Below, piece after piece: positions 1 through 20,846 of a stretch of DNA of 37,470 nt. The translations under genes and the position numbers were made by a program. How positions within the stretch are numbered: the first letter of the stretch is position 1; every line of letters starts with the position of its first letter. Source of the DNA: Candidatus Levyibacteriota bacterium (GTDB lineage: Bacteria; Patescibacteriota; Microgenomatia; Levybacterales; UBA12049); NCBI GenBank assembly GCA_027459745.1, contig DAIDHL010000005.1, positions 64,646 to 102,115 of the forward strand, written 5' to 3'. Under the pieces are notes generated by a model. The model was not told where the DNA came from. It did not search any database and worked only from the letters and a program-made list of their open reading frames with translations.

Positions 1-3000
1 TTCCCCCACCGCCACCGCCTGTACTTGAACCATTAGCATTTATTACGCCCCCTGAAGCAACAGTTATTGTTTGACTACTATTAATTACGACTGCACCTCC
101 ACCATTTGAACCATCACCATAATATCCATACATACCACCACCACCACTACCTGAATCATCGTAAGTATATGTATTAGTAGTTGTACAGGCTGGACTTCCA
201 TTTATTTGACCTGCTCCTATGTAACTTCCTCCACAACCTCCATAATATGTGTTTCCTTGGTAAAGAAGTCCTCCTCCTCCTCCTCCTGGCCCATAGCCAG
301 CATATCCATAGGTGGAAGTTTGTCCTCCTTTATAACCTAGCCCAAGCATGTTGATAGTTCCACCAATTGTCACATTTCCTGTTGCGTTCAAAGTAGCAAG
401 TAAAGGACCAGTAAAAGAATAATATGCACTATCAAGTGTTAATGTTGTACCTGAGGGAATATTTATTGAAGTAAAATTGAATAAATTTTTAGTCGATCTT
501 GTAATAGTACAAGTTGAAGTACCACTATTCCAAGAGAGTCCAGTTCCTGTACATCCTCCTGTTGCACTACCTTTAGACAAATCTAATGTACCATCCGCTC
601 CTGTTCCTCCTGAAACTTGAGAACTATACATCACTGTAGCGTTATCTATAAGTGCTATCGGTAGCGCACTAGATGTAGCTGCACCTACAGAAACGTTACC
701 ATTGGTACTATTAATGGGTGCTTTATACACTGTAGCTCTAGCATTTGCTGCTGTTCCATCCGTACTTCCTCCAAGCGTGTAAAGATAACTGTTTGCTCCC
801 ACTTGTCCCGCAGCAAATCCAAAATTCGTGATACCCGTATCTAGCGGATTTTGATTAGTTGATGAAAGAGCAGTCAAATTATCCACAGTTCCAATCGTTT
901 TCATAGATCCTGTACCCTCAAAAAAGTTTGAATTATCTTGAGAAATTGGAAATTGGGTACTGTCAGAGCTTGTATAATTTCCAGCCATATTATCCAACGA
1001 GTCAATCTGGAAGCCGGTATTATATGTCGTCGCACCACTCGTTATTGCCGTATTACCATAATATATAGAGTAGGCATTGGTGCTAATGCCTGCCGCTACT
1101 GTGGCTTGGAGCTGGAAGGTGAAAATAACCGAAGAATTAGTAAATGTAGCGACATTTCTGGCAATTTCTGTTCCATTATAACCAATTCTAAAATCTTGCT
1201 CATCAGGCCTGGACTTTTGATAGATTAAAGAAGCTTGATTACCGCTTAAAATAACAGTTACTTCGTAACCAATTGGTAACGTGGACACATCTGTGTTGGA
1301 AATTTGCAACATGTTCTTATAGGTAAAATCATTGGTGCCCAGAGTCCACAATCCGGGTACAGCTGTGCCGATAGTGGTATTGGCAGCCCCAGTCATATTG
1401 ATACCTCCGCCAAAAGCTGATTGACCAGATGCTACGGACAAAGAATAAGCATTAGCAATTCGCTCATTCGTTCCGGCAGTCGGTGCACCAGCGATGGCAA
1501 AGGTAGCAGCCTGATTGGTATACACAGAATTATTGGAAGCATTCAAAGTAGGTGCGGAAATTGAATTGAAATTCATACTTGTGACAGCTCCTGATGTAGC
1601 TGTACTTGTATCAGTAAACGTTTGGGAAGCCACCGCCAAGGCTGATCCCGTTGATGAAGGAGTACCAGAAGAGTTAGAACGAATATCCAAAGAAGCTTGA
1701 GGCGCCGACGTCCCAATTCCTACTCCGCCGGTGGGTAATAAAGCAATATTGCCGGTCGTACTGCCACCCAGTGTCAAAGTACCATTTTGCTCGGTCTGAA
1801 TAGTACCATCAGCGCCAAGAGACAAACCAGAGCCAGTACTGGTCGCAGACAAAGAAGCGATTGGCGTACCGCCTGCCACATTAACGACCGCAAACTTGGC
1901 TGAGGCAGTAGATACTCCGCCGATTAAGAAATCCTGAGAAGTATTATTCTCTTCAATCACCGGTCCGGCTGATTGGAATGGCTGATAAGTTCCTCCACCC
2001 GGACAACTACCTACTCCTGTTACAATACCACCCGTAGTTACCACACAACCGGATGATCCACTCGTTATACCCTGATTACCACCCACCTCATATACACCGG
2101 AAGTTAAGTTAAGATTGCCATTATTGGTTAAAGTTAATTTAGTAGTACCCGAAGATGACGCTGTAAAGATATCATTGGTATTTGCTCCTGTTTGATTGAT
2201 AATTAAAGCAGCATTGCCGCCAGTAGTTCCTCCTGCCAAGGTCAAAAGAGAATTGGAAGTCGAGGTACCAATCCCAATATTGCCATTATTATTAATGTAT
2301 AAAGCCGGATTGGTATTCAACCCACTTATCCCACTTAATGAAGTATAAAAACCTAGATTACCACCATTTAATAAATCCAAAGAATTTGTATTATTATTAC
2401 CCGTCGGCACTGCTAAGGCTAAGTTACCAGATATAATTTGAGTGGGTGTTCCACTATTCACATTGGTAAAGGCAAAGACTGCTGACGAGGTAGATGTTCC
2501 ACCTATCAACAAGTCTTCTGAAGCATTGTTCGCGACGATAGCTCCATTTTGGGAGCTAAACATGTTAGGCCCCAAAGCACAATTTCCCCATATTGGATTT
2601 GGCGAAGCATAGAGCAAGCACTGATTTGGATTACCAGACGAGGTAAACGAACTAGAACCAACAGTGATTGGCACGAGTGAAATATTTGATACTCTACCTT
2701 GCGCATCGGTCGTAATCACTGCACTCTCTGTAGCGCTGCCATAACTGCCGGCTGTTCCCAGACTCTTTAGAGTAATTACTCCTGTGGATTGAATCGTCGC
2801 ATCACCTGTCATGGTAGCCCAAGAGGGAGCGCCACCTGTCCCCAATAATAACTGCCCGTTGGTACCTACTGCTGTACTTAACAGACTTGAAGATCCACCA
2901 TATATTAGTCCATTAGTAGTGTAACTCGATGCTCCCGTACCTCCATTGCCAAAACCAAGTTGTCCAGTAAAATTGGAACTCGTACCCAGATTAATCTTCC

Positions 3001-6000
3001 CAGAAGACAATATTCCTCCTGCTACTGAGACAAAACCATCCGTCATCAAACCAGAAAAAGTAATCGTCCCTGCGCTAGACAGACCTGTCAAACCTTTCAA
3101 AGCTCCTGTAGCGGCAATATCACCATTATTGGCGATCGTAAACCGAGCTACGCCTGAAGCAGAAGCTGCAAAAACATCATTATTAGACGATCCGGTTTGG
3201 TTAAGAATTAAAGCTGCATTACCACCTTTGACTCCGCCTTCTAAATCCAAAGCTGCAATTGGATTGGTCGTACCGATACCTACATTGCCATTGTCATAAA
3301 TATCTCCTGTACCCAAAGTATATTGTCCGCTAAAGATTGGTACATAATTAGCTACACCATTGCCGCCCAAACTGGTAGCTGTTCCCGTACAATTACCGGA
3401 AGTATCACAAAGCTGTTGATTGCCCCAGTACAATGAACCAGATGGCGCACCACCACCAGCCGTGGTATTTAAAATATCATTGGCTCCTAATGCGGCCCCC
3501 AAACGGACACTGCCTTGTACGTCTAACTTAGCTCCAGGATTGCTAGTACCAATACCTACCAAACCAGAGTTGGCAATGTATAAAGCTGAATTATCACCAG
3601 ACGTTCCCCCTACACTTGTTTCAATATTTAAACTACCCCCATTTAGTAAGGACAAAACATTATTTGCATTACCACCTCTTGAGACAGCCAAAGATAGATT
3701 TCCAGCGATACTGGCCGTCGGATTACCGGAGTTTACATTGAGTAAACCAAACACAGCCGAACTAGTGGATGTTCCCCCGATTAAGAAATCAGTAGTCGTA
3801 TTAACCGGTACTATGGAACCATTTTGGATATTCCAGTAATTCGGTGTCACCACACCAGGACAAGTGCTCCAGGCAGGAGCACCACTAATAACCATCAAAC
3901 ATTGATTAGTGCTACCAATAGCTAAAGTATTTAGACTAGAACCACCACCATATATTAATGATCCGGCAGCCAAAGTATTAAAACCCAAACCCCCATGAGC
4001 AAAACCCAAAAGATTGCTCACGTCACTGCTGCTTGAAAGATCAACTGTACCATTACTCAATGTACCAGTCGTGATATCAGATCTGACAATACCCCCAGTA
4101 GCTAAGGCACCGAAAGAAATCGTACCTCCACTGGCAATACCTGCCAAACCGGAAATTGCCCCGGTAGCAGCAATATTACCATTATTATTAATGACAAATT
4201 TAGTTGCTCCTGATGAGCTGGCGGCAAAAATATCACCTGCACTTGGCTGATTAACAATCAAACTAGAATTTCCACCCACTGAGGTCTCCACATCCAGACC
4301 AGCCTTAGGAGTAGACGTTCCTACTCCAATGCCGTTGTTGTAGTAAAGTATGGATGACCCAATCACTGTTCCGCTGATGAAGTAAGCAATTGCATTATTA
4401 GTTCCACTACCCGTAATGCCACCGCCTCCTCCACCGCCGCTTCCACAATTGCCTGAACTGTCACAAATAGTCAGATTACCCCAATATAATGACCCGGAAG
4501 GAGCACCACCTGAGGCTGTTGTATTCAAAATATCATTGGCTCCCAAAGCCGCTCCCAAACGAACACTGCCTTGTACATCTAACTTAGCCCCCGGATTATT
4601 AGTACCAATACCGATTGAGGTATTTTTTTGGAAAACTGCTGAATTGGAAATTGAATTGGTATCAAAGAATAAAGGCAAGTAACCAGCTGTACCGGTACCC
4701 GCTAAACCTGTGCCCGAACCTAAACAATTACCCGACATATCGCATACCTGACTACCATTCTGATAAATATTGGTACCATTTACAGTAGTTCCTCCAACTG
4801 TCGTACCTGAAATAGTCGTTCCGTTTACCGTGCCCCCATTGAGCACCTTGGCATATACATTGTTATATTCATTGCCCGTCCCCGTACCCAAGTTGTACGT
4901 ATCAGCCAGCGTAGGATTCAAACTGGTAGCCACACCGGCTATATTCATCACATCACGACTGCTGTTTAAGACATTCGTTCCGCCCATTTGCAAATTTCCG
5001 GCTGTAATATTGACGTAACTTGAGGGAGTCAGACCCGTAGACAAATAACTTGAGCTGATAGTATCGATATTAACTAAATTGCCTTTATTATCAATTCGCT
5101 CAGTACCCCCGTATAAAATTGGATTAAGAGAAGTATAAATGCCTCCACCAGTCACTCCTCCTTGGGCGGTAATATTCCCGTTCATTTGCACATTTCCGCT
5201 ACTATCAATAAAATTGCCATATATACCACCTGAGAAAAACTGTACATTACCCGTAGTACCATTGGAACCAAATGTCAGAGAATTACGTGAGGTAGTACCA
5301 ATATTGCCATTGGCATCCAAAACCAATGCATTTTGTCCGGCGGAAATAGTGGCGGTACTCGTTCCGCTTTGAATATTTATAAAGCCAATTCGGGCACTTG
5401 CTGTACTAACTCCACCTAGTAACAAATCATTGTTTACAGTCGCTGGTGATAATGCACCACCATTTAGTTGCCAATAATTAGTCGTCGCACAGTCACCCCA
5501 AGTCGGTGTACTCCCACCGCTGGACATCAGACATTGTGAGTTCAAACCGGCTCCTGTATATGCCAAGGCTGTACCATTGGAATATAACAACCCTCCAGCT
5601 GCTCCCACACTGCCCAAACCAGTACCACCGCGCGCGATTCCCAAGATACCGGTAGTAATAACGGAAGCATTTAGTGAAGGAGTTGTATTTGTCACACCTG
5701 TGATGCGACCTTTTGTATCTGTTGTGAAAACAGGAATTTGACTGGCACTGCCATATGTATTTGAAGATCCTACATTAGCGAGAGTAGCCACTCCATTTTG
5801 ATTGAGAGTGAAGTCACCACTAATACTAGTAAACAACGGCGCACTACCTGTTTGACCGATCAGTATTTGTCCATTTGTTCCTGGACCTGTCTGTCCCAAA
5901 GAACTAGCCCCGTTACCCAACAACAAAGCATTTTGTGTAAAACTTGAATTACCGGTACCACCGTTAGGAACTGGTACGATGCCAATAAGCTGCTGCCCGT

Positions 6001-7627
6001 TTACTACCACTGGAGTATTCGTCACTGAGACGATGCGGCCCGCTGCATCAGTAGTAAACACAGGAATGGCGCTGGCACTACCATATGTATCTGGCGTACC
6101 CACATCTTTCAAAGTCAAAATTCCATTTGGACCACTAGGTATAATAGTCGCATCACCTGATAGTGTATAAAACGCAGGAGCGCTACCTGTACTACCCAGC
6201 AACAATTGTCCACTTGTCCCGGCAGCTGTGGTTAATAGAGCAGAAGAAGAACTACCATACAGAATACCATTCAACGTAAATGAGGTTTGACCGGTTCCCC
6301 CATGACTGACCGGCAACGTATTGATAACTTCTGTGCCGAGATTAACTGCACTACTCGCCAATAACCCTCCTGCCCCTACATGCAAAACTCCTGTTGATAA
6401 GTTGGGCATGGTCACATTGCCGTCCAGATTGACCGTGTTATTAAACGTCCACAAACCAGTAATCGTTTGATTGGTAAAAGTTTGCGGGATATGGCCCCCT
6501 GCATAATCAAGAGAGATATTTACTGTCGAACCGCTTTTACTCGCAATAAAGTCAGGATGAAGAAAATCGACTGTATCAATACTGCTGTATTGAGTGAGAG
6601 GACCATTTTGAACGTTAATTGACCCAGATGATCCTGAGGCCACATTCGAACAGATCCAGACATCATTGATACCATCCCATTGTAAAACTTGAGCATCTGA
6701 GCAACCGTGTAATAAACCTAATTGACCATTAACAAATTCTAACCCAGAATATGACTGAGTAGTGGTGGAGGTTGATTTAGTATTGATTAAATTAACGGCT
6801 AAACTACCTGAGCTAGAGCTCAAGCCATTCCCAGTCAAAGAAGTAAAATTATCTCCATTTAACTCAATTGACCCGAATTGTGCGGTACCCGTCACATCCA
6901 GAGGGAAGGCTGGCGAAGTAGTGCCGATACCCACATTGCCTGAATTGTAATAGATATTCGCACCACTAGTAGTCCATTGTGAGGTAGAGCCTGCCGAAAT
7001 AGTTAGCTTCTTACCAGTTGAATCAGTCACTATTCCGATTCCTGTGCCCGGTACAAAAGTTAAAGTATCAGTTGCTGATCCTGCTGTCAGAGTAGTTTGA
7101 CCACCAACTGCTATATTGGCAAAAGAATTAGAGGAAGAAGAAGCACTGGCAGAGATTTTATTACCACTGATGGTAATATTATCTCCAGCTTGCAAGGTGA
7201 CATCCCCCGTCGCTCCATTCAAAGAAAGCACTCCAGTATTGCTAACAGTAGGTGTTTGGCCGCTTGTTATATCTATACCCGTTCCTGCAGTAACCCCATA
7301 AATCAAATTTGGTGCAACCACTTTCCCATTGCCCGTGACTACGTTCTGACCATTGGTTTGGATACCTCCATTAAATGTTGCCAGGCCTGTAACATTTAAT
7401 GCCCCTTTAACAAAAGCATCTTTATCAAAAGTTACGTTTTCACTAAATTCACTTGGCAAATTGACTTGGAAGAGATTTTCCAGACTCAATGTGGAAATAC
7501 CCAAAACACTTTTACTCTTAGTCGCTGTAAGGGGTTTTGAAAAAGAGAATAATGGCCATGAAGACAGTAAGCCCAAAGTTATTAACAAAAATACCAAGAG
7601 TGCAGATACGAATAATTTCTTTTTCAT
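1..7627 (-). CDS. Giant exported beta-strand-repeat / tail-fibre-like surface protein, C-terminus beyond window
   Basis: Reading the minus strand from the ATG at 7625-7627 gives one frame with no stop to the window edge, at least 2542 codons; the plus-strand ORFs here are shadows. Residues 1-25 (MKKK followed by a hydrophobic stretch) look like a signal peptide. The body is Gly/Ser/Thr/Asn/Ala rich. It contains three phage-tail-fibre-like modules (GGTG...LLYG, then GDxT...TYGSA...TTDxxGR), seven GIGT-type stalk motifs each followed by L-D-V or similar, and four D-[FL]-L-[IL]-G-G-x-S-T motifs. Around 1000-1330 there is a DUF2341-like segment (RPDEQDFRI...IYYGN), and 1-330 is glycine-rich. The known relatives of these motifs are trimeric fibres and CPR surface proteins. 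An attachment role is inference. No catalytic site was recognised; the true length and any C-terminal anchor are unknown. Confidence 0.9.
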   Translation of the reverse strand, partial: MKKKLFVSALLVFLLITLGLLSSWPLFSFSKPLTATKSKSVLGISTLSLENLFQVNLPSEFSENVTFDKDAFVKGALNVTGLATFNGGIQTNGQNVVTGNGKVVAPNLIYGVTAGTGIDITSGQTPTVSNTGVLSLNGATGDVTLQAGDNITISGNKISASASSSSNSFANIAVGGQTTLTAGSATDTLTFVPGTGIGIVTDSTGKKLTISAGSTSQWTTSGANIYYNSGNVGIGTTSPAFPLDVTGTAQFGSIELNGDNFTSLTGNGLSSSSGSLAVNLINTKSTSTTTQSYSGLEFVNGQLGLLHGCSDAQVLQWDGINDVWICSNVASGSSGSINVQNGPLTQYSSIDTVDFLHPDFIASKSGSTVNISLDYAGGHIPQTFTNQTITGLWTFNNTVNLDGNVTMPNLSTGVLHVGAGGLLASSAVNLGTEVINTLPVSHGGTGQTSFTLNGILYGSSSSALLTTAAGTSGQLLLGSTGSAPAFYTLSGDATIIPSGPNGILTLKDVGTPDTYGSASAIPVFTTDAAGRIVSVTNTPVVVNGQQLIGIVPVPNGGTGNSSFTQNALLLGNGASSLGQTGPGTNGQILIGQTGSAPLFTSISGDFTLNQNGVATLANVGSSNTYGSASQIPVFTTDTKGRITGVTNTTPSLNASVITTGILGIARGGTGLGSVGAAGGLLYSNGTALAYTGAGLNSQCLMSSGGSTPTWGDCATTNYWQLNGGALSPATVNNDLLLGGVSTASARIGFINIQSGTSTATISAGQNALVLDANGNIGTTSRNSLTFGSNGTTGNVQFFSGGIYGNFIDSSGNVQMNGNITAQGGVTGGGIYTSLNPILYGGTERIDNKGNLVNIDTISSSYLSTGLTPSSYVNITAGNLQMGGTNVLNSSRDVMNIAGVATSLNPTLADTYNLGTGTGNEYNNVYAKVLNGGTVNGTTISGTTVGGTTVNGTNIYQNGSQVCDMSGNCLGSGTGLAGTGTAGYLPLFFDTNSISNSAVFQKNTSIGIGTNNPGAKLDVQGSVRLGAALGANDILNTTASGGAPSGSLYWGNLTICDSSGNCGSGGGGGGGITGSGTNNAIAYFISGTVIGSSILYYNNGIGVGTSTPKAGLDVETSVGGNSSLIVNQPSAGDIFAASSSGATKFVINNNGNIAATGAISGLAGIASGGTISFGALATGGIVRSDITTGTLSNGTVDLSSSSDVSNLLGFAHGGLGFNTLAAGSLIYGGGSSLNTLAIGSTNQCLMVISGAPAWSTCPGVVTPNYWNIQNGSIVPVNTTTDFLIGGTSTSSAVFGLLNVNSGNPTASIAGNLSLAVSRGGNANNVLSLLNGGSLNIETSVGGTSGDNSALYIANSGLVGIGTSNPGAKLDVQGSVRLGAALGANDILNTTAGGGAPSGSLYWGNQQLCDTSGNCTGTATSLGGNGVANYVPIFSGQYTLGTGDIYDNGNVGIGTTNPIAALDLEGGVKGGNAALILNQTGSSNNDVFAASASGVARFTIANNGDIAATGALKGLTGLSSAGTITFSGLMTDGFVSVAGGILSSGKINLGTSSNFTGQLGFGNGGTGASSYTTNGLIYGGSSSLLSTAVGTNGQLLLGTGGAPSWATMTGDATIQSTGVITLKSLGTAGSYGSATESAVITTDAQGRVSNISLVPITVGSSSFTSSGNPNQCLLYASPNPIWGNCALGPNMFSSQNGAIVANNASEDLLIGGTSTSSAVFAFTNVNSGTPTQIISGNLALAVPTGNNNTNSLDLLNGGNLGFYTSLSGISGLNTNPALYINNNGNIGIGTSTSNSLLTLAGGTTGGNAALIINQTGANTNDIFTASSSGTTKLTLTNNGNLNLTSGVYEVGGNQGITSGSSGCVVTTGGIVTGVGSCPGGGTYQPFQSAGPVIEENNTSQDFLIGGVSTASAKFAVVNVAGGTPIASLSATSTGSGLSLGADGTIQTEQNGTLTLGGSTTGNIALLPTGGVGIGTSAPQASLDIRSNSSGTPSSTGSALAVASQTFTDTSTATSGAVTSMNFNSISAPTLNASNNSVYTNQAATFAIAGAPTAGTNERIANAYSLSVASGQSAFGGGINMTGAANTTIGTAVPGLWTLGTNDFTYKNMLQISNTDVSTLPIGYEVTVILSGNQASLIYQKSRPDEQDFRIGYNGTEIARNVATFTNSSVIFTFQLQATVAAGISTNAYSIYYGNTAITSGATTYNTGFQIDSLDNMAGNYTSSDSTQFPISQDNSNFFEGTGSMKTIGTVDNLTALSSTNQNPLDTGITNFGFAAGQVGANSYLYTLGGSTDGTAANARATVYKAPINSTNGNVSVGAATSSALPIALIDNATVMYSSQVSGGTGADGTLDLSKGSATGGCTGTGLSWNSGTSTCTITRSTKNLFNFTSINIPSGTTLTLDSAYYSFTGPLLATLNATGNVTIGGTINMLGLGYKGGQTSTYGYAGYGPGGGGGGLLYQGNTYYGGCGGSYIGAGQINGSPACTTTNTYTYDDSGSGGGGMYGYYGDGSNGGGAVVINSSQTITVASGGVINANGSSTGGGGGG

Positions 7628-7668
7628 TGTCACAATAACCAAAAGGACCTAAAAAGGCCCTCTATTCA

Positions 7669-10012: not shown

Positions 10013-11932
10013 TTGCCTCAGACTCTTGCAATCTGTTCACAAAAGCGTCAATATAAATATGTAGCCTCTTTTTCTTCTTATATGGAAACCAAAGATACTG
10101 CATCAATCAAAGATTTGGGAGTGGCCATAAGTGACAACAAAGTTGTCATTTTTTCCAACGCTCAGCATGCTGGAACAAGTATTTTTAGAGCCGGTATAAG
10201 TAAGGATGGGCTATCTTTTAAAAGCTCCACTAAACAGCCGCAAATCTTGATTTCCAATGGTCAGTTAGAAGACACCAAAAGCTGTCAGGATTTTTTTATC
10301 ACTACTATCCATAACACCAATTACTTAATATATAAGAAAAAGCTAAATGATACATATACTCTTAATCTTGCCAAAGCTAAAAATGTTTATCAATGGCAGT
10401 TTCTGACAAAATTAGAAAATATCCAAGAAAAAGGTGCGATCATTCCATTACAAATAAATAATAAAGACTTAGCGCTAATTTATGGTGAAACAGAGATTAA
10501 GATAGCATATTTAGATTCTAAATTTAAAATAACTAATACGCAGACTCTTCTCTCGCCTAGACAAAATGCCTTTGACAAATTTCCACTGGAAGTTGGGGGT
10601 ATTTTCCCACATGAAAGCGGCATACTTGTGATATATTTTGTTAAAACACCAAGGCGTGAAGGCGAACAATATTCTGCGGGTGCAGTACTTTTGGATAAAA
10701 ATAACTTAACTAAAATTCTCTGGAGATCAGATCAGGCCATTTGGGAACAGCCAGAAGATTGGAATAATATGACTGTCTATCCGCTTGGAGCCCTACATTT
10801 TAAAGACAATCTTCTTTTTTATTTCGGAATTGAAAATAAAAGTGTTGTGGCAGTTTCATTTAAAAACTATAGTAGAATTTTTAGCCCCAAAAGATTTTTC
10901 CCAACCCCCGCTTTGAGTAAACACAAACAAAATCCGATTATCACTCCTGTTATGCAGCACTCTTGGGAAAATCAATCAACTTTTAACGCTGCCGCTGTTT
11001 ATGATAATGACAAAGTCCATTTAATCTACCGTGCCCAGGGTGACGCCAATACTTCAGTACTTGGATATGCTAATACTAGTGATGGTTTTAATATAGATGA
11101 TCGGTCGGAAATGCCTATTTATGTACCTCGTGAACAATTTGAAACTCCCTGGCGTCAACCTTTTAAACTTACCAAGCAATATATGTCCGGCGGCGGTTAT
11201 GGAGGTTGTGAAGATCCTAAGCTAACAAAAATAGATAACCGCTTTTACCTTACTTATGTAGCTTTTAATGGTATGGACCCGCCACGGGTAGCCATCTCCT
11301 CAATTGAAGTTGAAGATTTTCGCCAGCAGAACTGGAATTGGTCTCCTGCTAAACTCATATCTCCACCGAATGTTATCGATAAGAGTGCTGTTTTGTTCCC
11401 GGAAAAAGTTAATGGGAAATATGTGATGATGCATAGAATTTTCCCTAATTTATTAATCGATTTTTTGGATGATTTAAACTTTAATGAATATCTCAAGGGA
11501 GATCATCGTATTGAGCCGAGGGAAAATATGTGGGATAGCAGAAAACTTTCAGCTGGAGCCCCCCCTATTAAAACTAAAGACGGATGGCTGCTGATTTATC
11601 ATGCAGTAGATGACCGTGATGACAAACAATATAAAGTGGGTGCAATGCTGCTTGATATTAATTATCCTACCAAAGTTAAATATCGTTCTTTACACCCTAT
11701 TCTCACCCCCACAGAATGGTATGAAAACGAAGGTTTTAAAGCGGGCATTGCCTACCCCTGTGGAGCAGTAGTCATTAATGGAGAGTTAATGGTTTATTAT
11801 GGAGGGGCAGATACTGTTGTTTGTGTAGCCAGTAAAAATCTTAATGAATTCTTAAAAGAACTTAAAGAATCCAGCCCTATCACTATGGAATCAGTTCCAA
11901 ATCACCAATTTATTACCAGAAATTCTAAGTAG
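10013..11932 (+). CDS. Double-propeller GH130-family glycoside phosphorylase/hydrolase-like protein (degenerate + canonical module)
   Basis: The 639-residue protein appears to hold two GH130 (DUF377) five-bladed propellers. The C-terminal module (about 300-620) is canonical: NPI start, LIYRA, GCEDPK with the expected catalytic Asp at 401, PPRVA (Arg425), MMHR (His474-Arg475) as candidate phosphate ligands, and a closing CGAVV...VYYGGAD blade. The N-terminal module (about 20-295) keeps only traces: CQD at 91-93 where CED is expected, and LGALHFKDNLLFYFG. Known GH130 members act on beta-mannosides, mostly as phosphorylases. No signal peptide, so probably cytoplasmic. The start is uncertain: TTG at 10013, or ATG at 10082, which would cut into the first blade. 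Confidence 0.8.
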   Translation: MPQTLAICSQKRQYKYVASFSSYMETKDTASIKDLGVAISDNKVVIFSNAQHAGTSIFRAGISKDGLSFKSSTKQPQILISNGQLEDTKSCQDFFITTIHNTNYLIYKKKLNDTYTLNLAKAKNVYQWQFLTKLENIQEKGAIIPLQINNKDLALIYGETEIKIAYLDSKFKITNTQTLLSPRQNAFDKFPLEVGGIFPHESGILVIYFVKTPRREGEQYSAGAVLLDKNNLTKILWRSDQAIWEQPEDWNNMTVYPLGALHFKDNLLFYFGIENKSVVAVSFKNYSRIFSPKRFFPTPALSKHKQNPIITPVMQHSWENQSTFNAAAVYDNDKVHLIYRAQGDANTSVLGYANTSDGFNIDDRSEMPIYVPREQFETPWRQPFKLTKQYMSGGGYGGCEDPKLTKIDNRFYLTYVAFNGMDPPRVAISSIEVEDFRQQNWNWSPAKLISPPNVIDKSAVLFPEKVNGKYVMMHRIFPNLLIDFLDDLNFNEYLKGDHRIEPRENMWDSRKLSAGAPPIKTKDGWLLIYHAVDDRDDKQYKVGAMLLDINYPTKVKYRSLHPILTPTEWYENEGFKAGIAYPCGAVVINGELMVYYGGADTVVCVASKNLNEFLKELKESSPITMESVPNHQFITRNSK

Positions 11933-12024
11933 ATTTAATAAGTAGGAATAATGTAGTATGTAGAATGTAGAACGAAAATACCGATGGTGAATATTATTGC
12001 CATATACTACTTTCTACTAAATCT
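11931..12024. repeat. Long imperfect inverted repeat between the two GH130 genes
   Basis: AGATTTA (11931-11937) pairs with TAAATCT (12018-12024). Inside it GTAGTATG pairs imperfectly with CATATACTAC, and TGTAGAA-like units recur (11953-11972). It fills nearly the whole 109-bp gap. It could be a small palindromic repeat element or a transcript hairpin; no transposase is present. Confidence 0.4.
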
Positions 12025-12041
12025 TTTAGGATTTACAGCTT

Positions 12042-13982
12042 ATGCAAATAAATCGTTCTGACAAAAACCCCATTCTACTACCTTCTCGCCAAAATACGTG
12101 GGAATCTACTGCTGCATTCAACGGTTGTGTTACAAAAACAAATGGCACGTTTCATATGTTATATCGTGCGCTGTCATCAACACAAATAGTCAATAAAAAT
12201 AAACTGCAACTTTCCTCAATTGGTTATAGTCAAAGTAGTGACGGAGAAAATTTTTCTGAACACACACAGCTTTTTATTCCCCAGGAAAGCTGGGAGATTT
12301 ATGGCTGTGAGGACCCCAGAATCACGTTTTTGGATAATAAATATTACATTTTCTATACCGCATTATCTCAATTTCCTTTCAATGCCAATGGTATCAAAGT
12401 TGGGTTGGCCATCACACAGGATTTAAAAACTATAACGCAGAAACACCCAGTCACCCCTTTTAATGCCAAAGCCATGTCACTTTTTCCGGAAAAGATAAAT
12501 GGTAAATACGCAGCTATACTAACCGCTAATACAGACCAGCCTCCAGCTAAAATAAGCTTAGCACTGTTTGATAAGGAAGAAGAAATGTGGTCAAATGACT
12601 ACTGGCAGCGCTGGTATAGATATCTGGATGACCATGCAATACCTTTACAGCGGGCGGACAAAGATCAGGTGGAGATTGGCGCCCCACCTATCAAAACTGA
12701 TTATGGATGGCTGTTAATTTACGCTTATATAAAAGATTATTTTACTGACCATAAAATCTTCACCATTGAGGCAGCACTACTTGACTTACATAATCCTAAA
12801 ATAATTTTGAGTAGAATCACTACACCATTATTACAGCCGGAGACAAATTATGAACGTTTTGGTTATGTACCCAACATTGTTTTTCCATCCGGAGCACAAA
12901 TACACAATGATGAACTTTTTGTCTATTATGGAGCAGCAGATACATATACATGCTTGGCCAAATGCTCTTTGTCTGAATTGTTAAGTGAATTAAATGATCC
13001 AAAAAATAAAGTTGAACATGTAGGTGAAGCAGTTGATATCTCAGTACGTTTACACCGATATTTCGAAAATCCTATCCTAGCACCAATCAATGATCATGAA
13101 TGGGAAAATAAAGCTGTATTTAATCCTGCCGTAATTAAAATCCAAGACAAAATTCATATTTTATACCGGGCGATGTCAAATAATAATGTTTCCAATATTG
13201 GTTACGCACAAACAACAGATGGATATCATATCGATCAGAGATTGGACAAACCAGTATATGTACCCAGAGAAATTTTTGAAACCAATGGATCAGGCAATAA
13301 TTTTGGCTGTGAAGATCCGCGTCTAACATTGATTGATGAAAGAATTTACATGTGCTACACGGCTTATGATGGACACAATGCACCCCGAGTCGCATTTAGT
13401 TCTATCAGTTTGGAGGACTTTCTATTACAACGCTGGCATTGGTCAATTCCTAAATTAATTTCACCACCCGGAATTGATGATAAGGACGCTTGTGTTTTAC
13501 CAAAAACCGTTGGAGGTAAGTACATGTTCTTTCATCGCTTACAAACTTTCATCTGGGTAGATTTTGTTGACGATTTACATTTTTATGAAGGCAATTATCT
13601 GGGAGGATCAATTTTACTAAAGTCCCGACCAGGCCAATGGGATAGTCATAAAGTAGGTATTGCAGCACCACCGATTGAGACACCTGATGGTTGGTTGCTG
13701 TTATATCATGGTATCGGTGATGATCATTATTACCGTGTGGGTGCAGTTCTGTTGGACTTGGATAACCCAAAGCAGATCCTAGGCAGAACCACTTATCCAT
13801 TACTTGAACCTGAAATGCATAATGAAAAAGACGGCCAGATACCAAACGTGGTATTCCCATGCGGTGCGGTTGTCAAAGACGATACTCTTTTCGTGTATTA
13901 TGGCGGGGCAGATAGTGTCACAGACGTTGCCACAGTAAAAATGGATAAAGTACTCCAGTTGCTAAAAAAATCTCACCTCTAA
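12042..13982 (+). CDS. Double-propeller GH130-family glycoside phosphorylase/hydrolase-like protein (two canonical modules)
   Basis: 646 residues with two full GH130-type propellers joined by a linker near residues 320-337. Module 1 (about 1-320) has NPILLPS, MLYRA, GCEDPR with Asp91, and closes with PSGAQ...VYYGAAD. Module 2 (about 340-640) has NPILAP, ILYRA, GCEDPR with Asp425, APRVA (Arg449), FFHR (His498-Arg499) and CGAVV...VYYGGAD. Module 1 lacks the Arg and His-Arg positions that in module 2 would bind phosphate (GIKVG and AAILTAN stand there), so only module 2 looks like a phosphorylase. This gene and 10013-11932 are homologous neighbours, four propellers in all. No signal peptide. A substrate such as beta-mannosides is a family-level guess. 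Confidence 0.85.
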   Translation: MQINRSDKNPILLPSRQNTWESTAAFNGCVTKTNGTFHMLYRALSSTQIVNKNKLQLSSIGYSQSSDGENFSEHTQLFIPQESWEIYGCEDPRITFLDNKYYIFYTALSQFPFNANGIKVGLAITQDLKTITQKHPVTPFNAKAMSLFPEKINGKYAAILTANTDQPPAKISLALFDKEEEMWSNDYWQRWYRYLDDHAIPLQRADKDQVEIGAPPIKTDYGWLLIYAYIKDYFTDHKIFTIEAALLDLHNPKIILSRITTPLLQPETNYERFGYVPNIVFPSGAQIHNDELFVYYGAADTYTCLAKCSLSELLSELNDPKNKVEHVGEAVDISVRLHRYFENPILAPINDHEWENKAVFNPAVIKIQDKIHILYRAMSNNNVSNIGYAQTTDGYHIDQRLDKPVYVPREIFETNGSGNNFGCEDPRLTLIDERIYMCYTAYDGHNAPRVAFSSISLEDFLLQRWHWSIPKLISPPGIDDKDACVLPKTVGGKYMFFHRLQTFIWVDFVDDLHFYEGNYLGGSILLKSRPGQWDSHKVGIAAPPIETPDGWLLLYHGIGDDHYYRVGAVLLDLDNPKQILGRTTYPLLEPEMHNEKDGQIPNVVFPCGAVVKDDTLFVYYGGADSVTDVATVKMDKVLQLLKKSHL

Positions 13983-17592: not shown

Positions 17593-18550
17593 TATACTGA
17601 ATATTGTTATCGATCAAATGTAATAATTCCAGCGTGTCGGCATAACGATTGGTACTATCCATAACGATTATGATAAATACATGCGACCCATCTTGTTTGG
17701 CGGTAATTAACACTTGCCCTGCTTCTTCTGTTGTACCTGTCTTAATACCCACCACACCATCCTGACCTAATAATTGATTTAAGTTGGTAAGCGGATAGCC
17801 ATACACTTTATTAGTCGTCATAATGTACATATTTTGTGTTCCCACAATTTGATGTAGAAGTGGCTGGCGAAAAACTATATCTGCCAAATCAGCCAAATTA
17901 CCTACTGTTGCATAATCACCTGGATCATCCAGACCAGCCGGATCTTGATAGGCAATATTGTTAAGATGTAAAGCTTTAGCTTTTGCATTCATCGCAGCTA
18001 CAAAGGCTTTTTCTCCACCGGGATAATTATCAGCCAGCGCCATAGCCGCATCATTGGCTGAAGGTAAAAACATGGCATATAGCAAATCAACAAAACGGAA
18101 TTGTTCACCTGCAAAAAAATGTAATCCAGAACCTTCCACAAAATTTCTTTTGATAGTCAAAACATCATCGGGTTTATAATAATCAAGCCCTACTAAAGCC
18201 GACATCATCTTGGTGGTAGAAGCCATGGAGGCATGTACGTAAGGGTTTTTTTCGTATAAGACCTTATGTGAATCAGCATCCATAATAATCGCACTTACAG
18301 CAGAGATAGTGGGTTGGAAATTATAAATTAGGGAAGGATAATCTGCCCACGGCTGGGCTGTATTTATATTCTGCAATTTTAACTGCTGAGTTTGATTTTG
18401 TAAGTTGCTGGCAAAAATGGCCAAAATTATTAAAATACCCAGCAGTAGAAAAGGAAATAATAATAAACGTATCTGTAGGTCGAAACGAATAAAAAATCTT
18501 GTAATAACTTTACAGGTTGTCTTCAGATGATTGTTGAGAGAGTCTTTCAT
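17546..18550 (-). CDS. D-alanyl-D-alanine carboxypeptidase, peptidase S11 family
   Basis: 334 residues. One membrane anchor at about 28-50, then a DacA-type penicillin-binding domain outside the cell. All three active-site motifs are intact: SxxK as S111-T-T-K114, SxN as S164-A-N166, and KTG at 270-272 in VGIKTGTTEEAG. It trims the terminal D-Ala of peptidoglycan stem peptides. The C-terminal DacA extension is missing, as in short S11 enzymes. The ATG at 18550 follows an in-frame TTG directly. It overlaps the aspS end by 41 nt, so the two are co-transcribed and perhaps translationally coupled. Confidence 0.93.
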   Translation of the reverse strand: MKDSLNNHLKTTCKVITRFFIRFDLQIRLLLFPFLLLGILIILAIFASNLQNQTQQLKLQNINTAQPWADYPSLIYNFQPTISAVSAIIMDADSHKVLYEKNPYVHASMASTTKMMSALVGLDYYKPDDVLTIKRNFVEGSGLHFFAGEQFRFVDLLYAMFLPSANDAAMALADNYPGGEKAFVAAMNAKAKALHLNNIAYQDPAGLDDPGDYATVGNLADLADIVFRQPLLHQIVGTQNMYIMTTNKVYGYPLTNLNQLLGQDGVVGIKTGTTEEAGQVLITAKQDGSHVFIIIVMDSTNRYADTLELLHLIDNNIQYTTESEMVSELPAQNH

Positions 18551-19844
18551 CAATTCTTTCCATATCGCGAGGAAACAACGAAGCTTCCCTCACATTATGC
18601 AGCTCTAGTAATTTCATTGTAAGCCGTTCTAAGCCAAATGAAAAGCCTCCTTCTGGTGGCATGCCATATTTAAATGCCATTAAATACATGCCAAAGTTCT
18701 CGGGATTAACCTTTTTGTTTTTCATCGCTTGGATCAATTGTTGATAATCGTTAATACGTTTACTTCCGCTTAAGATCTCAATTCCTCTAAACAGTAAATC
18801 ATACGATAAACTATATTCAGGATTTTCTGGGTCAGGCATTGTATAAAAGGCTCTTTTTTTAGTAGGAAAATGAGTAATGGTTACGAAGTCTGATTGATGT
18901 TCTTCTTTGCCCCACAGGCATATTTCTCTTTCATCTTCGGGATTTAAATCATTTTCCTTTGATAAATCTCTTCCCGTGCGTTTGGTTACAATAACTTGTG
19001 CCTGCCTTAATGTTAGTCTAGGAATTTGATCTGGGACTAAGGGCTGATCTACTCCAAATTCCTCCAGTATCTGACTATAATTTTTGGATACATTGGAAAC
19101 CATCGATGTGCCCACATATTCTAAGGCATTTAGCAATTCATCAAACGAATCTATAAAAGCAATTTCGATATCCATCTGCGTTGCTTCCGTTAAATGCCTT
19201 GTCGTTACTGATGGCTCTGCCCTATATGCTTTTGCAATTGTATAAACACGCTCCAGCACTCCAACCATAATTTGCTTGTATAATTGAGGACTTTGGGTCA
19301 TAAACGCCTTGTGACCAAAATAATCGACTTGAAAGACTTCCGCTCCACCTTCTGTAGCACCTGCAGCTATAGTTGGAATGAATATCTCTGTGCAGCCAAG
19401 TTTTTCAGCTGATTTACGAAACTCATCAGCTAATGCAGCTTGGACTTTAAATATTTTCTGAATCTTCTCGTGTTTAAGTGTAAGGGAACGATGATCTAAT
19501 AAAGTTGGCAACTCAAGATTAAGTGTCTGCTGTCCCATATCGAAAGGCAGCGTCTCTGATTTGCTTAATACTACATATTCCTGAACATCAATCTCCACTT
19601 TTCCTGTAATAATTGCCGGATTGATCATCTTTTCTGGACGTTTTTTGACAACGCCTATAATTTCTATTGAAGATTCGGGTGTCAAATCGGACATTTTTTG
19701 AAAACCAACACACTGGATAACACCAGTTCGATCACGTAAATCAATAAATGTTAGCTTGCCATGATCACGTTTAGTATTTACCCAGCCCTTAAGTGTAACT
19801 GTTTCCCCTATCTTTTCAATTGTGTCTTTAATCAAAGTTCTCAT
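18510..19844 (-). CDS. aspS: Aspartyl-tRNA synthetase, archaeal/eukaryotic (non-discriminating) type
   Basis: 444 residues, the short archaeal AspRS layout without the bacterial GAD insertion. It has an N-terminal OB-fold anticodon domain (LKGWVNTKRDHGKLTFIDLR), then a class II core with AGATEGGAEVF, TQSPQLYKQ, YRAEPSVTTRHL, SGSKRI and the motif 3 element FGLERLTMKLL. The D in TQMDIE and overall pattern favour AspRS over AsnRS. Archaeal-type enzymes often also charge tRNA-Asn, which then needs GatCAB; that is an inference here. I chose ATG 19844 over the upstream in-frame start at 19901, which lies in a hairpin leader. Followed by the carboxypeptidase gene. Confidence 0.9.
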   Translation of the reverse strand: MRTLIKDTIEKIGETVTLKGWVNTKRDHGKLTFIDLRDRTGVIQCVGFQKMSDLTPESSIEIIGVVKKRPEKMINPAIITGKVEIDVQEYVVLSKSETLPFDMGQQTLNLELPTLLDHRSLTLKHEKIQKIFKVQAALADEFRKSAEKLGCTEIFIPTIAAGATEGGAEVFQVDYFGHKAFMTQSPQLYKQIMVGVLERVYTIAKAYRAEPSVTTRHLTEATQMDIEIAFIDSFDELLNALEYVGTSMVSNVSKNYSQILEEFGVDQPLVPDQIPRLTLRQAQVIVTKRTGRDLSKENDLNPEDEREICLWGKEEHQSDFVTITHFPTKKRAFYTMPDPENPEYSLSYDLLFRGIEILSGSKRINDYQQLIQAMKNKKVNPENFGMYLMAFKYGMPPEGGFSFGLERLTMKLLELHNVREASLFPRDMERIDERLSQQSSEDNL

Positions 19845-19857
19845 GCTTGAAATTATT

Positions 19858-19909: not shown

Positions 19910-19938
19910 ATCATACATGGAAATATAGCTATTGACAA
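19910..19938 (-). promoter_or_regulatory. aspS promoter
   Basis: TTGTCA (19933-19938), 17 bp, TATGAT (19910-19915) on the minus strand. Its -35 overlaps the -35 of the plus-strand promoter for the leader RNA (19932-19937), so both promoters compete for one segment. Confidence 0.55.
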
Positions 19939-19961
19939 GGGTGTTTTTTAAGTACTATACT
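19932..19961 (+). promoter_or_regulatory. Promoter of the leader/attenuator operon
   Basis: Perfect TTGACA (19932-19937), 18 bp, TATACT (19956-19961), predicting transcription from about 19968. It precedes a short ORF, a strong terminator and two unknown genes. Confidence 0.65.
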
Positions 19962-19981
19962 CACTTCTGGGTTAAATTAAT

Positions 19982-20041
19982 ATGAGAACTAATTTACACG
20001 TAACTAATTTTAATAATCTCCGCGCTCAACAAATGAGCTAG
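19982..20041 (+). CDS. Candidate 19-residue leader peptide
   Basis: ATG at 19982 to TAG at 20039-20041 encodes MRTNLHVTNFNNLRAQQMS. It starts about 14 nt after the predicted transcription start. Its codons 12-16 form the 5' arm of the outer terminator stem and its stop codon lies in the 5' part of the inner stem, so a ribosome on it would prevent the terminator from folding. The peptide has no run of one amino acid. It resembles the logic of ribosome-mediated attenuators (erm- or vmlR-type leaders), not any sequence I know. Translation is unproven. Confidence 0.45.
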   Translation: MRTNLHVTNFNNLRAQQMS

Positions 20042-20100
20042 GGGATTTGGCGCGTGTAAAAGACCAAATCTCCTCTCATTGCGAGCAGGGGATTTTTTTT
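20014..20100 (+). terminator. Two-stem intrinsic terminator/attenuator with U8 tract
   Basis: Inner hairpin: GGGGATTTGG (20041-20050) pairs with CCAAATCTCC (20064-20073), extended by AATGAG/CTCATT-type pairs (20032-20037 with 20075-20080). Outer stem: AATCTCC..GCTC (20015-20027) pairs with GAGC.GGGGATT (20083-20093), followed directly by eight T. The inner loop holds CGTGTAAA (20053-20060), an exact complement of TTTACACG (19993-20000) upstream, which would allow an alternative fold or pseudoknot. The stop-like structure sits between promoter and gene, so it must be read through for expression, or it ends a separate small RNA. Confidence 0.7.
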
Positions 20101-20109
20101 GGGAAATAT

Positions 20110-20481
20110 ATGAAAAAAGATAACGGACAATTTATACCAGAATTATATGCAAGGTTTGGTTCTTACCCAAACAATACCACTATTCCAGATAGTGAAAAAC
20201 AGCGGAATATGCTGCAATGGTCTGAACAAGGACCTGATCAAGAAAAAAGTAGAGCTATTTTACGAGGTCAACAAGCTTTTGCTGCCTACTTACACGAAGC
20301 GGGCTTAGCACCAGCTTCAGAATGCTATATGGATTATATGGGATATGAGGTAAGTCCACATTTTGATATTTATTCCGTTCCTTTAAGTGTACAAAGAGCA
20401 ATTAGAGGTAGAGGTAGATTACCTAAATCAGAAAGAAACGCACGAATAGCAAAAGACAGACGCACTCAATCACAAATTTAA
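20110..20481 (+). CDS. Hypothetical protein downstream of the attenuator
   Basis: 123 residues from the ATG at 20110. The in-frame TTG at 20047 is inside the terminator stem and is rejected. No membrane segment or signal. It is rich in charged and aromatic residues, with YMDYMGYEVSPHFDIYSVP in the middle and a strongly basic tail (RGRGRLPKSERNARIAKDRR) that could bind nucleic acid. I do not recognise a family. It is followed after 2 nt by a second unknown gene, so the two form one operon controlled by the upstream leader. Confidence 0.7.
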   Translation: MKKDNGQFIPELYARFGSYPNNTTIPDSEKQRNMLQWSEQGPDQEKSRAILRGQQAFAAYLHEAGLAPASECYMDYMGYEVSPHFDIYSVPLSVQRAIRGRGRLPKSERNARIAKDRRTQSQI

Positions 20482-20483
20482 AT

Positions 20484-20846
20484 ATGGGAATATCAAAAGA
20501 AGCAATATTAACTAAAAGAGAAAAATTAAAAGGTCTTGACGCTGCTAGTAGTCTTGGTTCTACATCTGTATATTCAGGATTACCACACCATGATTATTAT
20601 AGAACTTCAGCAACTGTTGAACCCTCAACCATGGTGGAGGCTATAAAATATATGTATCAGTTACTTAGTGATATGGAACCAGATCAGGCCGCTAAATATG
20701 CACAAAATTTAGCCAGAGATGGAGAGCTACTTTCAGAGGCTTATAAAGGTATGACTATGGCGCTAAAATATACTGGAGGAAAGAAAATAATACCTCAATC
20801 GCCTGAACCGATGCCTATGAGAACTATGCCAATACCTAAGTCATGA
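20484..20846 (+). CDS. Hypothetical protein, second gene of the attenuator operon
   Basis: 120 residues, start 2 nt after the previous stop. The middle (about 50-95) looks helical: MVEAIKYMYQLLSDMEPDQ, then KYAQNLARDGELLSEAYKGM. The tail is Pro/Met-rich (PMPMRTMPIPKS). No signal peptide or membrane helix. No recognised family. It ends 5 nt before the convergent recJ end. Its only visible partner is the 20110 gene. Confidence 0.7.
   Translation: MGISKEAILTKREKLKGLDAASSLGSTSVYSGLPHHDYYRTSATVEPSTMVEAIKYMYQLLSDMEPDQAAKYAQNLARDGELLSEAYKGMTMALKYTGGKKIIPQSPEPMPMRTMPIPKS

Follow-up and report, generated by a model that had tools for sequence, protein, structure and literature searches.

The stretch of DNA analyzed here (the window, 37,470 nt from a Candidatus Levyibacteriota bacterium) contains a leader that is very probably a ribosome-mediated transcription attenuator of the trp/his/leu type, located in front of an operon of two genes, P1 and P2. 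The leader is assigned to this class by its conserved promoter, its in-frame ORF, the position of the stop codon, and its mutually exclusive helices, together with the recovery of amino-acid attenuators by a covariance model (R1) built from leaders of this kind. The elements, their conservation, their exclusive pairings, and the class of leader to which they belong are established at the level of sequence.

The divergent genes aspS and recJ flank the leader and P1-P2, which are encoded on the plus strand. The order on this strand is promoter, 19-codon ORF, hairpins that end in a U8 tract at position 20100, P1, and P2. The promoter (19932–19961) is composed of TTGACA (19932–19937), an 18-nt spacer, and TATACT (19956–19961); it has 11 of 12 consensus matches and is the top-scoring site of the region. 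The leader ORF (19982–20041) encodes MRTNLHVTNFNNLRAQQMS and is closed by TAG at 20039–20041. P1 (123 residues, 20110–20481) and P2 (120 residues, 20484–20846) are both open, are separated by 2 nt, and belong to no known family. The consensus promoter, the 19-codon ORF, and the two downstream genes without known function were all found where the initial annotation had placed them. Within the window, no plus-strand gene directly upstream would need a terminator at the leader, and no Rfam match was obtained for the window at the gathering score. Elsewhere in the window, two adjacent ORFs of about 640 residues (10013–13982) carry repeated GH130-like motifs (GCEDPRLT), as judged by eye. The ORFs listed from 1 to 7650 are all short, on the plus strand, and rich in proline and alanine; they probably lie antisense to a very long gene of repetitive sequence that extends past the start of the window.

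Segment 1 of the leader RNA (AAUCUCC, 20015–20021) is located inside leader codons 12–14 and pairs with 20041–20047. The inner part of the resulting stem 1 (20024–20038) is formed by GCTCA (20024–20028) with TGAGC (20034–20038), and the paired part of segment 2 in this stem begins at the last base of the TAG codon (20041). Segment 2 (AGGGGAUUUGG, 20040–20050) has as its partner either segment 1, in the terminating conformer, or segment 3 (CCAAAUCUCCU, 20064–20074), in an antiterminator of 11 bp. Segment 3 is common to the 2:3 and 3:4 helices. Segment 4 and the U8 tract (AGGGGAUU with U8 at 20093–20100) occupy 20087–20100, and the 3:4 helix is an intrinsic terminator of 9 bp (20066–20074 with 20087–20095) that is mutually exclusive with 2:3. 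An outer helix, P0, is formed by UUUACACG (19993–20000) as the 5′ strand and CGUGUAAA (20053–20060) as the 3′ strand; the complement is exact over 8 nt, and there is no other of that length in the leader. The fold energy of 19968–20100 was determined to be –38.0 kcal/mol, compared with –24.2 ± 3.4 kcal/mol for dinucleotide shuffles (z = –4.1), and none of the 200 shuffles was as good. The minimum-energy fold contains 2:3 inside 1:4, and the ensemble centroid contains P0, 1:2, and 3:4; these are the two rival conformers of a four-segment attenuator layout. A simple terminator scan, whose rule does not allow a loop and bulge of this size, did not call the plus-strand terminator, which folding does detect.

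These pairings amend the initial annotation. The hairpins and U8 tract of the proposed two-stem terminator are present, but stem 1 (20015–20047) is the anti-antiterminator, and the terminator arms are found at about 20066–20095. The ORF had been said to overlap the 5′ arms of the terminator; it overlaps stem 1 and not the terminator arms proper. The exact 8-nt complement had been recognized correctly, but its reading as an alternative fold was rejected, since P0 encloses stem 1 and closes the terminating conformer; instead, the alternative fold is formed by the pairing of 20040–20050 with 20064–20074. P0 stabilizes the OFF state.

In the proposed mechanism, RNA polymerase would start near 19968, and a ribosome would translate the 19-codon ORF. 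A ribosome stalled at about codons 9–16 would cover segment 1 and open P0; in this state, the 11-bp 2:3 helix would form, 3:4 would be blocked, and P1-P2 would be transcribed. A ribosome that reaches the UAG codon would mask segment 2, so that the 3:4 terminator would form and transcription would stop in the U8 tract. Without translation, P0 and 1:2 would hold segment 2, and transcription would be expected to stop as well. The earlier suggestion that either translation or stalling frees the downstream genes is therefore retained for stalling but not for completed translation, since the ribosome at UAG would mask segment 2. The stall window (A site at about codons 9–16) is an estimate from the usual ribosome footprint; we infer the kinetics and the signal in addition to this stall window.

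Another genome of the genus has the whole leader (78% identity, E = 2.5e-35), again between aspS and recJ and with the leader promoter retained. The peptide is MSCNLHIIISNNLRFQAS in place of the MRTNLHVTNFNNLRAQQMS of the window, and the start and stop codons are both kept. Within the ORF there is a single indel, of 3 nt and in frame; a further 2-nt indel is outside the ORF. The two ATG codons were set against each other for this comparison, MAFFT having placed a compensating 2-nt gap directly after the start. The stop codon is again at segment 2, and segments 1–4 are all retained. In the inner part of stem 1, GCTCA/TGAGC is replaced by CTT/AAG with the pairing preserved, a compensatory change that was read directly from the sequence. 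P0 has two mismatches in this genome, and its own-strand rank is 0.68, no better than that of swapped strands. The gene behind this leader is a different ORF of 93 residues, for which the searches gave no match to P1 or P2.

The upstream regions of aspS were taken from 40 genomes of the family. In about 20 family genomes, the same layout was found between aspS and recJ: a promoter, an ORF that is mostly 16 codons long, a stop at segment 2, segments 2, 3, and 4, a U run, and an ORF of varied family. The leader ORFs of these relatives were partly picked by eye. P0-like pairing recurs in most relatives, with changing sequence; among 36 leaders, the mean rank of a leader's own strands against swapped strands is 0.28, compared with an expected 0.5 (KS p = 4e-5), and the rank of the window leader is 0.014. 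The wider leader set overturned the view that P0 is not conserved, for which the two failing pairs in the second genome of the genus had been the reason. The proteins encoded behind the aspS-side leaders form several unrelated groups. At one locus (L026:131–1011), there are two leaders, each preceding its own small orphan ORF. Non-conservation of the ORF or stems had been named initially as the outcome that would speak against attenuation; the ORF frame, the stop position, and the helices were found to be conserved in the genus and in the family.

When genomes were scanned with a sequence pattern covering segments 2-3-4, 10 of the 73 from the family gave a match; among 374 sampled from the class, the matching genomes all belonged to the same order. 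The reversed control pattern gave no match in the same genome sets. The covariance model R1 was constructed from 14 leaders, all of which precede genes without known function. The training copies were loop-trimmed to one length because MAFFT was unable to align the full-length leaders, and the E-values of R1 are rough. Such a search had been suggested by the initial annotation as a check, and R1 was found to recover the leader class in the order and in the class, including amino-acid attenuators with matching codon runs. With 82 genomes of the order, R1 identified many further leaders. Histidine codons are present in the leaders of hisG (KAAHHNLS) and a histidine/aromatic ammonia-lyase (KKAHHTSLT). 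The leaders of leuA (LLLNLVLLL), ilvE (LLLVVDLLILV), three ilvA genes (Ile-rich), and aspartate kinase (EIIIITSS) were also matched, as were those of cysK (ICCT and ICCCA), pheS (FFFFTFTS), DAHP synthase (TFWFYF and WFYFFF), thrS (TTTT), the methionine synthase metE (MMEMM), and phosphoserine phosphatase/phosphoglycerate dehydrogenase (SSSS). For the proteins tested, Pfam or NCBIfam gave the identity of the enzyme. Each of the named amino-acid leaders is enriched in the cognate residue (p = 0.05 to 2e-5 each), where the residue was fixed by the gene and the leaders were chosen by eye from the match list. Across the class, R1 matched 90 of 281 genomes at E = 1e-3, including leaders of trpS (WW), lysS (KK..KK), and cysK (CCC), with the genes named by eye. 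The matches L105, L107, L110, L117, L118, L122, L124, L127, L129, L140, and L142 look like chance hairpins and were rejected.

The position of the stop codon was determined for the 44 leaders outside the training set that show a clear 2:3 pairing (one training locus, L026, remained among them). In 23 of these, an ORF that starts with ATG or GTG and has 9 or more codons ends within –2 to +3 nt of segment 2, compared with 4% for dinucleotide shuffles (p = 6e-21). In a set of 33 leaders, the 3:4 positions form standard pairs in almost every case, with three different pair types at one position (covariation); segments 2 and 3 also covary (Fisher p = 0.007). Since 1:2 and 3:4 were used in fitting the alignment, the 2:3 count is the only one unaffected by this bias.

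Several other leaders were observed during these searches. The window genome has a second attenuator-like leader (L106:1500–1700, contig C20) that consists of a promoter, MLNFLSCQIHFSLPTMLMVV followed by TGA, and an AATCTCC/GGGAGATT terminator; it precedes a 230-residue protein without a Pfam match. Tandem attenuators with STTTTIS and ETTTTTQF leaders precede a gene for a SerB-like phosphatase and an apparent thrS (L111:4000–4245), and a leader-like element with three Tyr codons precedes an ORF without known function and an apparent tyrS (L075:900–2484). His, Asp, Asn, and Tyr are the residues read by queuosine tRNAs. The leader MHSRVDVNNNYSPYPYALR (L139:850–1666) precedes a queuosine precursor transporter (TIGR00697), and these four residues account for 8 of the 18 positions that follow its Met (p = 0.005); this leader could be an attenuator that senses the queuosine modification of tRNA. 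The leader MNSRVDVNNNFSPSSSSDLN (L136, about 1541–1700, minus strand) precedes a SerB-SerA fusion and has SRVDVNNN in common with the queuosine-transporter leader of another genome.

The divergent neighbor aspS (18513–19847, minus strand) encodes a non-discriminating aspartate--tRNA(Asn) ligase (NF003483, 475.8 bits versus a cutoff of 353). Its promoter, TTGTCA-17-TATGAT (19910–19938, minus strand), overlaps the –35 element of the leader promoter (a CTTGACAAG-type element), and the two transcripts diverge back to back from one common –35 element (19910–19961). A minus-strand –35 element with a –10 element of 5/6 matches at exactly 17 nt is present in 18 of 21 aspS-side leaders (L024–L065). The overlap would link the aspS and leader transcripts at initiation, and attenuation would separate them afterwards. 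Two relatives of aspS were found at 69% and 59% identity, the latter in a Patescibacteria MAG. The identity is only 53% between the aspS of the window (18513–19847) and that of another genome of the same genus (L024:4429–5787), and the neighboring proteins look much closer; aspS has likely been replaced at a fixed site.

Asparagine is encoded by leader codons 4, 9, 11, and 12, three of which are within the estimated stall window, and Asn codons are at the control position in both the window and the same-genus leaders. The Asn content of the window leader (4 of 18) has an uncorrected p value of 0.012, which is not significant after correction for 20 amino acids. No AsnRS scores above its cutoff in the window's genome. 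From the Asn codons in the stall window, the non-discriminating aspS neighbor, and the result for AsnRS, our best local guess for the signal is the supply of Asn-tRNA, which may act through slow decoding of Asn codons 9, 11, and 12; we hold this guess tentatively. Asn runs are absent from the other aspS-side leaders. A single amino-acid signal for all aspS-side leaders was rejected after His, Lys/Arg, and Asn were checked by eye, since these leaders have no common codon run, in contrast to the leaders of biosynthetic genes in the same class. Queuosine-codon sensing at the window leader was likewise discarded, there being no enrichment by eye across the aspS-side leaders. P1 and P2 show no functional link to any amino acid.

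No match for P1 or P2 was obtained with Pfam, PHROGs, PADLOC, or NCBIfam, except for one sub-threshold Pfam match of P2 (E = 0.25), and these searches found no resistance family for either protein. The viral collection gave no match for P1 or P2, the genome and phage collections gave none for P1, and the plasmid collection gave none for P2, which is an orphan. Matches of P2 to polyubiquitin are summed weak repeats (single-copy E of about 1) and were dismissed. P1 has one clear homologue (37% identity, E = 4e-9), which, in another genus, follows a similar leader next to aspS. The similarity of the same-genus 93-residue ORF to this homologue is weak (E of about 0.01) and is not significant evidence. 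The AlphaFold model of P1 alone is a low-confidence fold (pLDDT 47) and is unusable. In one relative, the next gene on the contig that contains the end of the P1 homologue encodes a methyltransferase with a weak, below-cutoff similarity to a 16S rRNA methyltransferase.

Because the aspS-side leaders have no common codon run, the main rival explanation is an attenuator that senses antibiotics or general translation stress. Here, a ribosome stalled by drugs or damage anywhere on the ORF would turn on P1-P2, no single amino acid would be sensed, and P1-P2 would protect or reprogram translation; the difference from the best explanation is in the signal only. The methyltransferase beside the P1 homologue and the known parallels BmrC/BmrD (PMC4191407) and toiL (PMC12121999) are consistent with such a sensor. 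However, P1 and P2 belong to no resistance family, and Asn codons occupy the control position in both leaders of the genus. We consider the stress sensor a possible explanation, short of a probable one. A trans-acting, terminated small RNA of about 135 nt, with incidental read-through into P1-P2, is an improbable explanation for the leader. The leader does have a strong promoter and terminator of its own and is conserved in the same-genus genome although the gene behind it differs, but a small RNA needs neither the conserved in-frame ORF, nor a stop at segment 2, nor the 2:3 antiterminator, and the leader usually precedes an ORF that starts a few to tens of bases past the U tract. A small RNA may arise as a by-product but would leave the conserved ORF unexplained. 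Two mutually exclusive folds in front of genes would also suit a metabolite riboswitch or a protein-binding leader in which the ORF is a chance frame, but this is very improbable given that conservation among the relatives is limited to the arms, ORF, and stop codon and includes no aptamer-like loops, that no Rfam family matches at gathering scores, and that the relatives found by R1 have cognate codon runs.

A ribosome-mediated attenuator, the preferred reading, is a textbook mechanism (PMC1183508) for which comparative work is available in other phyla (PMC1262725). The window leader has in common with the trp/his/leu attenuators (PMC1183508) a short ORF, segments 1–4 with exclusive 1:2/3:4 and 2:3 pairings, a U-run terminator, and a stop at segment 2; it differs in having no self-evident control codon, orphan rather than biosynthesis genes, and the additional helix P0. 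With BmrC/BmrD of Bacillus subtilis (PMC4191407) and toiL of E. coli (PMC12121999), it shares a short ORF on which stalling would open a downstream block with no amino-acid codon run required, but there is no recognized resistance gene or toxin downstream. The leaders of hisG, leuA, cysK, pheS, thrS, and others in the same order or class are likewise detected by R1 and have the same segment order and stop position, but they have cognate codon runs and known genes. In the open-access literature (subscription papers and preprints excluded), we found no earlier description of such attenuators in Patescibacteria or the Candidate Phyla Radiation.

Patescibacteria, to which this tiny-genome bacterium belongs, are mostly uncultured, and little is known of their gene control. 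With ribosome-mediated attenuation and its readable control codons, the signals sensed by these bacteria and the genes that respond to them could be predicted from sequence. The site between aspS and recJ is a conserved switch in front of genes without known function, and the function of these genes may be tested through what stalls the leader. A broader reading, which we regard as rather unlikely, is that the stall-sensing leader, with its promoter shared back to back with a tRNA(Asn/Asp) ligase gene, is a fixed switch in front of interchangeable, fast-evolving orphan genes. If so, this would be a translation-stress-induced effector site in Patescibacteria, in which the cargo (for example, ribosome protection, growth arrest, or phage defense) turns over between genera and the sensor stays.
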